From an uncultured Paracoccaceae bacterium (lineage in GTDB: Bacteria; Pseudomonadota; Alphaproteobacteria; Rhodobacterales; Rhodobacteraceae), in NCBI GenBank assembly GCA_947492585.1, contig CANLND010000009.1, forward strand, positions 62,001 to 126,000: DNA of 64,000 bases, given 5' to 3'. The notes below the pieces were generated by a model, which was not told the origin of the DNA, did not search any database, and saw nothing but the letters and a program-made list of their open reading frames with translations. Of the stretch, positions 4,747 through 29,438 are shown piece by piece. Both the position numbers and the translations under genes were made by a program. Position 1 is the first letter of the stretch. Each line of letters begins with the position of its first letter.

Positions 4747-6141
<1,395 letters not shown>

Positions 6142-6174: not shown

Positions 6175-6192
6175 TAGTTTACCGTTAAACTA
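6175..6192. promoter_or_regulatory. Palindromic operator upstream of lpdA
   Basis: TAGTTTA (6175-6181), four bases, then TAAACTA (6186-6192). The centre lies about 42 bp before the lpdA start. The same arms and spacing occur upstream of pdhA at 25700-25717, which points to a shared transcription factor. The regulator is not identified. Confidence 0.75.
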
Positions 6193-6326
6193 TTCCTGAG
6201 AGGCTCGCAATCACCCAGTACCGTCGCACAACCACCGTGTGCATTTTGGCCAGTATTGCGCCTGTACCGCCACAGTTGGCGTAAAAAGCCCGCCAAAAGC
6301 GCGCCGCCCAACCGATGGCCCGCAAC

Positions 6327-25261: not shown

Positions 25262-25561
25262 GTGACTCGCAACCACAATCCCTCAGTAGGTGCTTTTGTG
25301 TTTTTCGCCATCGCTTTTGCGTTGAGCGCTTACTTCACGTTTGCCGCTGTTCAAGGCGACTATGGGTTGTTTCGACGTGTCGAAATTCAGGCTGAGGCCG
25401 AGCAGCTGCAGCAGGATCTGGATCAGCTGTCGGACGAGATTTCAACCATGGAAAACCTGACGCGGCGGCTGTCAGACAACTATCTGGATCTCGACCTGTT
25501 GGATGAACAGGCCCGCGCCGTTCTTGGCGTGTTGCGCGCTGACGAATTGGTTATCCACTAA
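25262..25561 (+). CDS. FtsB/DivIC-like septum formation initiator
   Basis: A 99-residue bitopic membrane protein: a short cytoplasmic N terminus, one membrane helix (about 11-29), then a periplasmic coiled coil (EIQAEAEQLQQDLDQLSDEIS, about 41-61), with LDLLDEQARAVLG near the end. This is the layout of FtsB/DivIC, which joins FtsL and FtsQ in the divisome. The start is a GTG at 25262. It sits directly before the pdh operon, a gene order often found in alphaproteobacteria. Assignment rests on architecture rather than on strict motifs. Confidence 0.85.
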   Translation: MTRNHNPSVGAFVFFAIAFALSAYFTFAAVQGDYGLFRRVEIQAEAEQLQQDLDQLSDEISTMENLTRRLSDNYLDLDLLDEQARAVLGVLRADELVIH

Positions 25562-25696
25562 CCGCCTTGCATCTCTTTTGTTTTCGGGTTTGACTTGGTC
25601 TTTCAGGAGGCTGGGTCGTGTATTTTGTGCGCGAAAAGTGACACAACTTAAACTTGTGCAACTTATTACTCGCCAGAACCGGCAAAATGATTTATG

Positions 25697-25720
25697 AGAT
25701 AGTTTAACACTAAACTATCT
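25697..25720. promoter_or_regulatory. Palindromic operator upstream of pdhA
   Basis: AGATAGTTTA (25697-25706), ACAC, then TAAACTATCT (25711-25720), a perfect 10 bp inverted repeat. Its centre is about 36 bp before the pdhA start. The inner TAGTTTA-N4-TAAACTA is identical to the element before lpdA. Confidence 0.8.
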
Positions 25721-25744
25721 TGCCAAAAGGGGGAGCCTGCCACC

Positions 25745-26734
25745 ATGGCCGCAAGAAAAACCACCAAGAAACCAAATGTTTCAGCTGACGAACTCAAAAC
25801 GCACTATCGCGAAATGCTGCTGATCCGCCGATTCGAAGAAAAAGCCGGACAGCTTTATGGCATGGGTCTGATCGGGGGGTTTTGCCACCTGTACATCGGC
25901 CAGGAAGCCGTTGTTGTAGGCCTTGAGGCTGCGGCCAAAGAGGGCGACAAACGTATCACCTCCTACCGCGATCACGGCCACATGCTGGCCTGTGGCATGG
26001 AGCCGGGCGGCGTAATGGCCGAACTGACCGGACGTGAGGGCGGCCTGTCAAAAGGCAAAGGCGGCTCGATGCATATGTTCTCAAAAGAGAAGCATTTCTA
26101 CGGCGGCCATGGCATCGTGGGCGCGCAGGTGCCTCTGGGGGCCGGTCTGGCGTTCTCGGATAAATACAAAGGCAACGACAATGTGACCTTTGCCTATTTC
26201 GGCGACGGGGCTGCAAACCAGGGTCAGGTCTATGAGACATATAACATGGCGCAGCTGTGGGATCTGCCGGTGGTATTTGTGATTGAAAACAACCAATACG
26301 CCATGGGCACCTCGGTACAGCGGTCGACCAAATCCCCTGCCCTGTGGAAACGCGGCGAAGCCTATGGCATCTCGGGCGAAGAAGTCGACGGCATGAACGT
26401 GCTGTCCGTAAAGGAAGCAGGCGAGCGTGCCGTGGCGCACTGCCGCGCGGGCAAAGGCCCTTATATCCTTGAGGTAAAGACCTATCGCTATCGCGGCCAC
26501 TCTATGTCGGATCCGGCAAAATACCGCACCCGCGAAGAAGTGCAGAAAATGCGTGATGAGCGCGATCCCATCGAACAGGTCCGCGACATGCTGTTGACCG
26601 GCGGTCACGCCACGGATGAGGATCTGAAAGCGATCGACAAAGAGATCAAGGCTGTTGTGAACGACGCCGCTGAATTCTCCAAGACCAGCCCAGAGCCCGC
26701 GCTTGATGAGCTGTGGACTGACATTTACGCCTAA
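25745..26734 (+). CDS. pdhA: Pyruvate dehydrogenase E1 component, alpha subunit
   Basis: E1 alpha binds thiamine diphosphate and, with E1 beta, decarboxylates pyruvate and reductively acetylates lipoyl groups. The 329-residue protein has the ThDP/Mg motif (GDGAANQG at the start, IENN at the end, near residues 155-185), the substrate-loop YRGHSMSDPAKYR, and GGFCHLYIGQEA early on. GGGGGAG precedes the ATG. It is the first gene of pdhA-pdhB-pdhC, with 16 bp to pdhB, and is preceded by the palindrome shared with lpdA. Confidence 0.97.
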   Translation: MAARKTTKKPNVSADELKTHYREMLLIRRFEEKAGQLYGMGLIGGFCHLYIGQEAVVVGLEAAAKEGDKRITSYRDHGHMLACGMEPGGVMAELTGREGGLSKGKGGSMHMFSKEKHFYGGHGIVGAQVPLGAGLAFSDKYKGNDNVTFAYFGDGAANQGQVYETYNMAQLWDLPVVFVIENNQYAMGTSVQRSTKSPALWKRGEAYGISGEEVDGMNVLSVKEAGERAVAHCRAGKGPYILEVKTYRYRGHSMSDPAKYRTREEVQKMRDERDPIEQVRDMLLTGGHATDEDLKAIDKEIKAVVNDAAEFSKTSPEPALDELWTDIYA

Positions 26735-26750
26735 GGGGAAGACTTAGATT

Positions 26751-28127
26751 ATGGCAACTGAAATTCTGATGCCCGCCCTGTCGCCGACCATGGAGGAAGG
26801 CACGCTGGCCAAATGGCTGGTCAAAGAGGGCGATACTGTGAACTCAGGCGATATCCTCGCCGAGATCGAAACCGACAAAGCCACCATGGAATTTGAAGCC
26901 GTGGACGAAGGCACCATCGGCAAGATCCTGATCGATGAAGGCCGTGAGGGCGTGAAAGTAAACACCCCCATTGCCGTGCTGCTGGAAGAGGGCGAAAGCG
27001 CCGATGACATCCAGAGCGCGGCCCCTGCCGCCAGTGAAGCGCCCGTCGCCGAGGCACCTGCGGTGCCCGCAGCGCCCGTCGCTGCTGCCGCGGCTCCGAT
27101 TGCTGCTGTTGCGGATGTTGAGCCGGACTATCCTGCCGGGACAGAGCTTGTGCAACAAACTGTACGTGAAGCGCTGCGCGACGCCATGTCAGAAGAGATG
27201 CGCCGCGACGAAGATGTGTTCTTGATGGGCGAAGAAGTCGCCGAGTATCAGGGCGCGTATAAAGTCAGCCAGGGCATGCTGGACGAATTTGGGTCAAAGC
27301 GCGTCATTGACACGCCGATCACCGAGCACGGTTTTGCCGGCATTGCCACCGGGGCGGCCTTTGGGGGCTTGCGTCCGATTGTGGAATTCATGACCTTCAA
27401 CTTTGCCATGCAGGCGATTGACCACCTGATCAACTCGGCGGCCAAGACCCTGTATATGTCCGGCGGTCAGATGGGGGCGCCTATGGTGTTCCGTGGCGCC
27501 AATGGTGCCGCGGCGCGCGTCGGCGCGCAGCACAGCCAGGACTATGCCGCCTGGTACATGCAGGTGCCTGGCCTGAAGGTCGCGATGCCCTACTCCGCCT
27601 CGGATGCCAAAGGTCTGATGAAGACCGCGATCCGTGACAACAACCCGGTGATTTTCCTTGAGAATGAGATCCTTTATGGCCGCTCGTTCGAAGTGCCCAA
27701 ACTGGATGATTACACCGTGCCCTTTGGCAAGGCGCGCATCTGGCGGGAAGGCACAGACGTGACCATCGTGTCCTTTGGCATTGGCATGCAATACGCGTTG
27801 GAGGCGGCGGAGAAGCTGGCCGAAGACGGTATCTCAGCCGAAGTCATCGATCTGCGTACCCTGCGCCCGATGGACACGCCTGCAATCATCCGCTCGGTGA
27901 TGAAAACCAACCGTCTGGTCACTGTCGAAGAAGGCTGGCCACAGGGCTCTGTCGGCAACTACATCAGCTCGGTTGTGATGCAGGAAGCGTTTGATTACCT
28001 CGACGCGCCCGTCATCAACTGCACCGGCAAGGATGTTCCGATGCCGTATGCCGCCAACCTTGAAAAGCACGCGCTGATCACCACCGATGAGGTGATTGCC
28101 GCTGTGAAACAAGTCACCTATCGCTAA
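26751..28127 (+). CDS. pdhB: Pyruvate dehydrogenase E1 beta subunit with fused lipoyl domain
   Basis: A 458-residue protein: a biotinyl/lipoyl domain (about 1-78, lipoyl Lys43 in ETDKATME), an Ala/Pro-rich flexible linker (about 85-125) and a full E1 beta domain (about 130-458), including [23 protein letters not shown] and [11 protein letters not shown]. Lipoyl-E1 beta fusions are known in several alphaproteobacteria, where both E1 beta and E2 carry swinging arms. The lipoyl domain is almost identical to that of the next gene. It sits in the middle of the pdh operon, with 12 bp to pdhC. Confidence 0.97.
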
Positions 28128-28139
28128 GGGAGCGCGTTC

Positions 28140-29438
28140 ATGCCTATTGAAATTCTCATGCCCGCCCTCTCGCCGACGATGGAAGAAGGCACGCTGGCCA
28201 AATGGCTGGTCAAAGAAGGCGACACCGTCAATTCTGGTGACCTGATTGCCGAGATCGAAACCGACAAAGCCACCATGGAATTCGAAGCCGTGGACGAAGG
28301 TATTGTGGGGAAAATCCTGGTGACCGAAGGCTCCGAAGGCGTCAAGGTCAACACGTTGATCGCTGTGCTGCTGGAAGACGGTGAAACCGCAGGTGACATT
28401 GCCACAGGTGCCGCCCCGGCTGCCCCTGCAGCCGCAGAAGCTGAGGCGGCCCCAGCGGCCTCCGAAGCGCCTGCCCCGACGGCCAGCGCGGCCCCCGCCG
28501 CACCTGCCGCCGCAGATGGCACCCGCATTTTCGCCTCCCCTCTGGCCCGTCGCATCGCAGCGGACAAAGGTCTGGATCTGGCGACACTGCAGGGGTCTGG
28601 CCCACGCGGTCGTATCGTCAAAGCCGACGTTGAAAACGCCACAGCAGCACCCAAAGCCGCCCCCGCAACCGCGGCCCCTGCTCCGGCAGCGCCTGCGCCA
28701 GCGGCAGGCCCCACAGCAGATGCCGTGGCAAAAATGTACGACGGTCGTGAGTTCGAAGAAGTCAAACTGGACGGCATGCGCAAAACCATCGCCGCCCGCC
28801 TGACCGAAGCAAAACAGACCATCCCGCATTTCTACCTGCGTCGCGACATCAAGCTTGACGCGCTGTTGAAATTCCGCAGCCAGCTCAACAAACAGCTGGA
28901 AGCGCGCGGTGTGAAACTGTCGGTCAATGATTTCATCATCAAAGCCGTCGCCAATGCATTGCAAGCGGTGCCCGAAGCCAATGCGGTCTGGGCCGGAGAC
29001 CGTGTGCTCAAGATGAAAGCCTCAGATGTCGCGGTTGCCGTGGCCGTTGAGGGCGGTTTGTTCACCCCGGTTCTGGAAGACGCCGACAGCAAATCTCTGT
29101 CGTCTTTGTCCACCCAGATGAAGGACATGGCCAGCCGCGCGCGTGATCGCAAATTGGCACCCCATGAATATCAGGGCGGCTCCTTTGCGATTTCCAACCT
29201 TGGCATGTTTGGCACTGACAATTTTGATGCCATCGTGAACCCACCCCATGCAGGCATTCTGGCTGTGGGGGCAGGCACCAAGAAGCCGGTAGTTGGTGAC
29301 GACGGTGAACTGACCGTTGCCACGGTGATGTCTGTCACCATGTCGGTCGATCACCGGGTGATCGATGGAGCCTTGGGCGCAGAACTTCTGAACGCTATTG
29401 TGGACAATCTCGAAAACCCAATGGTGATGCTGGCCTAA
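28140..29438 (+). CDS. pdhC: Pyruvate dehydrogenase E2, dihydrolipoamide acetyltransferase
   Basis: E2 is the core of the complex and passes the acetyl group from lipoyl to CoA. The 432-residue protein has one lipoyl domain (about 1-78, Lys43), an Ala/Pro linker, a peripheral subunit-binding domain (about 122-158, [14 protein letters not shown]), a second linker, and the catalytic domain (about 200-432) with [13 protein letters not shown] carrying the catalytic His and Asp. Last gene of the operon, followed by an intrinsic terminator. The matching E3 is lpdA at 4747-6141. Confidence 0.97.

Follow-up and report, generated by a model that had tools for sequence, protein, structure and literature searches.

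The palindrome that precedes pdhABC and the distant lpdA gene very probably marks a small regulon, consisting of pdhABC, lpdA and maeB, under an unlinked MarR repressor. The motif was partly known before; what is new is the separate three-target regulon, its lpd member, its family-wide reach and the MarR candidate. The sites, their targets, their conservation, the co-occurrence with MarR and the pairing of site sequence with recognition helix were all computed here. The control of carbon entry into acetyl-CoA is poorly defined in Rhodobacteraceae, which are abundant marine bacteria; the analysis provides a predicted three-target regulon, present in the majority of the family genomes surveyed, together with a named candidate gene and a collection of natural helix–operator pairs.

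Sites in the window and in its genome

The window, a stretch of 64,000 nucleotides, contains the motif TAGTTTA-N4-TAAACTA at two places. The first (25,700–25,717) lies within the predicted pdhA operator at 25,697–25,720, AGATAGTTTA-ACAC-TAAACTATCT, whose arms reach 10 bp and whose centre is 36.5 bp before the start codon. The second, the predicted lpdA operator (6175–6192), reads TAGTTTA-CCGT-TAAACTA with 7-bp arms and is centred 42.5 bp before the lpdA start at 6141, on the minus strand. An earlier note made from the sequence alone had reported both sites, the 10-bp arms at pdhA, a spacing of 36–42 bp from the start codon and the absence of a third copy from the window; our measurements agree, with these two matches only in the window at up to 3 mismatches. 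Dinucleotide shuffling of the window (100 shuffles) gave a mean of 0.15 matches, two being reached once. Pfam supports the identification of the genes as E1, E2 and E3 of pyruvate dehydrogenase. pdhA (25,745–26,734, plus strand) encodes E1 alpha (329 aa; PF00676, 3.5e-104), pdhB (26,751–28,127, plus strand) E1 beta with an N-terminal lipoyl domain and pdhC (28,140–29,438, plus strand) the E2 acetyltransferase; the spacing suggests that the latter two belong to the target operon. lpdA (4747–6141, minus strand) encodes the E3 dihydrolipoamide dehydrogenase of 464 aa. A terminator-like stem-loop with a T-rich tail is also found upstream of the pdhA operator, at 25,591–25,618 of the window (1 found, 0.3 expected).

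The genome to which the window belongs (3.59 Mb, 83 contigs, 95.6% complete) has the pdhA and lpdA sites and no others at up to 1 mismatch, and unrelated copies do not crowd it. Five places are found at up to 2 mismatches: pdhA, lpdA, maeB and two asymmetric matches, one between TRAP transporter genes and one on contig C45. These last two were taken as chance because they are asymmetric and because the reversed control pattern gives 18 matches at the same threshold. The maeB copy, AAGTTTAGCCTTAAACAA, is weaker, with 2 symmetric mismatches, and sits on another contig than the window; domains of malic enzyme and of phosphotransacetylase are found in MaeB. The genome also contains a second malic enzyme-like gene (L070, G000:C11:99360-101594; 43% identity), and the stretch fetched around it has no site at up to 4 mismatches.

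The chance that the palindrome is an RNA element or an accidental repeat is negligible. A short A–U hairpin is conceivable; however, Rfam has nothing matching at 25,500–25,800, where the pdhA region was scanned, the palindrome sits at or before the likely transcription start, and the base composition of the window predicts only some 0.002 exact matches per genome.

Conservation and targets of the site

The genus is represented by 17 further genomes, and in 15 of them the motif matches at exactly three places when 1 mismatch is allowed; the reversed control gives 0 to 2 matches per genome. The exceptions are G009 (67% complete), with two places, at pdhA and lpd, and G007, with four. The fourth place in G007 (L037, 1 mismatch) is asymmetric with no target adjoining, and was discarded. 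The third place precedes maeB in all 16 of the 17 genus genomes for which it was fetched; the pdhA and lpd places were fetched in part. Across the family, 120 genomes, each from another genus and with our own included, were searched; the exact motif occurs in 51 and the reversed control in none. These 51 genomes hold 91 exact places (summed from the table). After removal by hand of six duplicate loci from 99 classified locus–site pairs, 93 distinct exact sites remained, of which 22 come from the genus and 71 belong to the 91 family places. They precede pdhA (40), maeB (38), lpd (13) or other genes (2), so that 91 of 93 are at the three targets, at distances of 11 to 93 bp from the start. The pdhA upstream regions of named records carry the site in 80 of 80 cases, with 0, 1, 2 and 3 mismatches in 46, 21, 9 and 4 loci, and one shuffle of each (n = 80) gave at least 5 mismatches; these 80, at 81–92% identity, rank highest among 586 confirmed PdhA hits and hence represent close relatives. 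The site is thus conserved before pdhA and lpd in relatives, and the proposal in the earlier note that one regulator is common to pdhABC and lpdA is supported at the level of sequence, neither of the two outcomes that the note named as refuting having been observed, and can be extended to maeB, to a MarR candidate and to repression as the likelier mode.

From the functions of the enzymes, the three targets would jointly govern the route from malate through pyruvate to acetyl-CoA. One family genome, G156, has an exact site (L115, 1501–1518) 50.5 bp before aceE, which encodes the homodimeric pyruvate dehydrogenase E1, a non-homologous enzyme type. It seems that the operator follows function when the type of pyruvate dehydrogenase is replaced. 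No regulator gene is a target among the family sites classified. AkgR, a GntR protein, has a target list of TCA operons such as suc and sdh (PMC4344238); 91 of our 93 exact sites are elsewhere, and the other two do not adjoin such genes by the frames read. These two, which are family sites without any of the three targets, are L059 (G045) and L045 (G100); the latter lies 128.5 bp ahead of a gene that resembles threonine/serine dehydratase and whose product can make pyruvate.

The MarR candidate and other possible regulators

A survey of 288 alphaproteobacterial genomes, 4 of them in the family, found the exact motif in 7, namely these 4 and 3 of the 284 others; the reversed control matched in 1 of the 288. 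The three outside genomes are from three different families and each has a tandem pair of palindromes before an acg-marR operon, which encodes an Acg-family FMN oxidoreductase and a MarR protein. Our own genome has one close homologue of this MarR (48% identity, E 1e-35; the next is at 30%). The gene, at G000:C11:74355-74795, is unlinked to the targets and stands in a glutaredoxin (grxC)–nitrilase–marR arrangement that converges on a methyltransferase gene; its product scores 39.9 bits with PF12802 (cut-off 27) and 24.4 with PF01047, just below the 24.6 required. A MarR profile run over the same 288 genomes identified 28 with a hit at E ≤1e-30, 24 of them outside the family, and by eye most of those loci have an acg-like neighbour. 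Short, near-perfect palindromes at the core promoter are a MarR-type trait, one that the candidate regulon fits (promoter elements being assigned by conservation). The comparisons that follow suggest that a MarR protein with an unlinked gene is the most likely regulator.

Sequence variation in the helix is accompanied by variation in the site. We compared 40 loci, comprising 26 loci of the class outside the Rhodobacteraceae clade and 14 further family copies. The helix [VL][TA][KR]GA[MI]TN is accompanied by a site (up to 3 mismatches) at 12 of 15 loci, against 1 of 25 with other helices (Fisher 9.5e-7 with kinship ignored, a descriptive value given that the grouping was post hoc). Tandem pairs, counting a second copy at up to 4 mismatches, occur at 12 of the 13 loci that have a site. 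Three MarRs with the same helix lack a site at up to 3 mismatches, L229 and L238 having pairs at 4 and L236 none; L240 has the site despite a somewhat different helix. Among the 14 further family copies (L307–L320), all but L318, 13 in number, are linked to acg and have the helix PK[TN][ST]M; tandem palindromes around CGATATCG appear in several of the corresponding promoters. L241, with the helix VSKPSMTATL, has TTAGTTAGCTAACTAA. The PK[TN][ST]M paralogs with their own palindromes constitute a natural set of helix–operator pairs.

Presence of MarR also tracks presence of the site. A MarR hit at E ≤1e-20, a threshold that admits acg-linked paralogs as well (G129 has a divergent copy only), was found in 103 of the 120 family genomes; exact sites occur in 50 of these 103 and in 1 of the 17 without MarR (Fisher 0.0009, kinship ignored). 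We then inspected the pdhA promoters of the 17 MarR-less genomes and, from the 53 that have MarR but no exact match, those of the first 13 in order of handle. All 13 MarR-bearing genomes have a pdhA palindrome with 1 to 5 mismatches, 12 of them at up to 4. Two of these sites are weak: in G019, with 4 mismatches, 6 of 200 shuffles matched as well, and in G036, with 5 mismatches, 7 did. None of 200 shuffles equalled the site in any of the other eleven. A pdhA site is present in one of the eight MarR-less genomes that were testable and absent in seven, whose best matches, at 5–6 mismatches, were equalled by between 11 and 200 of the 200 shuffles. The one exact pdhA site without a MarR is in G123 (590 contigs, 92% complete), where the marR gene was perhaps not assembled. 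The remaining nine MarR-less genomes comprise one (G095) with pdhA at a contig end and eight without a close PdhA: G033, G059, G066, G078, G082, G104 and G131, with no hit at E 1e-60, and G110, with a 38% hit only. This suggests that in those eight genomes MarR and PdhA were lost together, with another type of pyruvate dehydrogenase in place. In G126, three exact sites are present even though one stop is reported in the MarR frame.

The centre of the site is often CG, as is typical of LacI operators, and the LacI-type regulator CceR was reportedly the subject of a ChIP study in mBio in 2015. The central CG, together with PMC4344238, made LacI (CceR) our first lead, which was ranked behind MarR once co-occurrence proved partial. 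The palindrome could be a longer-spacer variant of the site of CceR/GapR (RSP_1663), with its genes falling within the broad CceR regulon, a reading we consider quite unlikely. In R. sphaeroides, malic enzyme and PdhAB are predicted to be under RSP_1663, with [A/G/T]GTT-N6-8-AAC[A/C/T] as its predicted recognition sequence (PMC4344238), and the N8 form of this repeat fits the palindrome. MaeB is lowered by deletion of cceR in Paracoccus denitrificans (PMC11323563). Close hits (E <1e-100) to the CceR-type LacI L121, which we assume to be orthologous to RSP_1663, occur in 11 of the 13 genomes that have the site and in 2 of the 7 that lack it (Fisher 0.02, kinship ignored), an association less sharp than that with MarR. 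However, G060 and G117 have the LacI (E 3e-109 and 6e-106) with neither site nor MarR, and in G018 and G031, where both site and MarR occur, the LacI hits reach only about 40% identity. Moreover, the site sits in acg-marR promoters of other families and tracks the MarR helix, and the GapR regulon as set out in PMC4052901, where RSP_1663 is called GapR and given a 20-bp palindrome, consists of glycolytic and gluconeogenic genes, pdh and malic enzyme not being listed in the text available to us. No GTT-N6-AAC was found near L119 or L121, the two loci inspected of the 8 LacI genes found in our own genome. MarR therefore appears to fit the site better than CceR, the LacI co-occurring partly.

The two clusters of predicted RSP_1663 sites (15 and 36) differ in spacer and likewise place GTT-N6-8-AAC at malic enzyme and PdhAB among carbon genes (PMC4344238, the main text of which does not contain the word MarR). 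They are assigned to LacI and mixed with glycolytic targets, whereas here the N8 form stands apart with three targets, lpd added, and a MarR candidate. This suggests that part of the published CceR regulon prediction should be reassigned.

Some other conserved regulator of the Rhodobacteraceae (GntR, XRE or another) could bind the site, the MarR association reflecting shared ancestry; the genomes are related and the co-occurrence comparison covered MarR and LacI proteins. We regard this as very unlikely. An unrelated factor would not explain why the site is found at marR promoters in several other families, nor why its sequence shifts with the helix. Among the papers listed in literature searches of limited journal coverage, none linked a MarR to the control of pdh in Rhodobacter, Rhodobacteraceae or roseobacters, or to Acg.

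Promoter layout, proposed mechanism and origin

The position of the palindrome within the promoter bears on the mode of control. In the 12 acg promoters printed, TTGA (9 of 12) or at least TTG (11 of 12) is found just before the first palindrome, which is usually followed by a TATATT-like stretch and then by the second palindrome; the pair would thus cover the spacer and the start, a repressor layout. TTGA is conserved about 18 bp before the palindrome of lpd (15 rows) and GTTCC about 18 bp before that of maeB (45 rows), and for both the −10 element would fall inside the palindrome. In the window a candidate −35-like TTGCGA (6205–6210, minus strand) starts 18 bp upstream of the lpdA operator, its TTG being strongly conserved in 15 aligned lpd promoters. 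Before pdhA (80 rows) TA..AGA is conserved directly ahead of the palindrome; a candidate −10-like hexamer, TATGAG (25,693–25,698, plus strand), abuts the operator upstream with its columns conserved in the 80 aligned relatives. A sigma-70 consensus scan before pdhA found no promoter match. Since covering of the core promoter usually means repression, this layout makes repression the likelier mode. Some MarR proteins are activators, and the candidate might bind the same sites and activate transcription; we consider this unlikely, given that the sites overlap the probable −10/start region of all three targets and, in the acg operons, the spacer together with the start region.

We propose that the palindrome serves as the operator of the small pdhABC, lpdA and maeB regulon in Rhodobacteraceae. 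A MarR-family dimer expressed from the unlinked grxC–nitrilase–marR operon would bind it and would repress by covering the core promoter, and a metabolite that signals the need for the malate to pyruvate to acetyl-CoA route might free MarR from the DNA. Physical binding, repression and the existence of such a ligand are what we infer from the patterns above.

Comparable control of these genes is known elsewhere. The operator of PdhR differs from the palindrome described here. PdhR, a GntR protein of Gammaproteobacteria, likewise controls pyruvate dehydrogenase genes including lpd, but belongs to another protein family than our candidate (PMC5343134). The pyruvate dehydrogenase and NADP malic enzyme (tme) proteins of Sinorhizobium meliloti are among those positively affected by PhaR (AniA), which is also a different protein, with a GC-containing motif and a broad, PHB-tied regulon (PMC12542648). 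In other Alphaproteobacteria, relatives of our MarR adjoin acg in Acg-family FMN oxidoreductase operons (NF047509), the promoters of which often contain the same palindrome. The Rhodobacteraceae MarR clade instead adjoins nitrilase, with the palindrome located before pdh, lpd and maeB. In E. coli, the MarR dimer occupies two operator sites in marO, one in the −35/−10 spacer and one downstream. The acg-marR promoters share this two-site layout; unlike E. coli MarR, the Rhodobacteraceae protein has putative targets in central metabolism and its gene shows no operator nearby.

In a tree of 73 MarR sequences the 33 members of the Rhodobacteraceae clade form one group (support 91/94). They share a fork of 50 rows, the support of which is uncertain (93/37), with 13 of the 15 class rows that have their helix; the tree is rooted at its midpoint, from which the direction of change is read. 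A nitrilase neighbours marR at 32 of the 33 clade loci. In 32 of the 33 stretches fetched, no operator was found at the marR locus within 3 mismatches, L267 being the sole locus with a nearby site, at 3 mismatches; autoregulation has therefore apparently been lost in this clade. A possible history, to which we give an even chance, is that a repressor of itself and of acg left the acg operon in an ancestor of the Rhodobacteraceae, kept its helix and operator, and became the unlinked, non-autoregulated repressor of acetyl-CoA entry (malic enzyme and the whole pyruvate dehydrogenase complex, even AceE), with the acg-linked paralogs in the family changing helix and operator together. L318 (G129:C18), which has no site nearby and is not linked to acg by the pattern used, is a divergent sister of the Rhodobacteraceae clade, with the helix VTRGAMSNTL.
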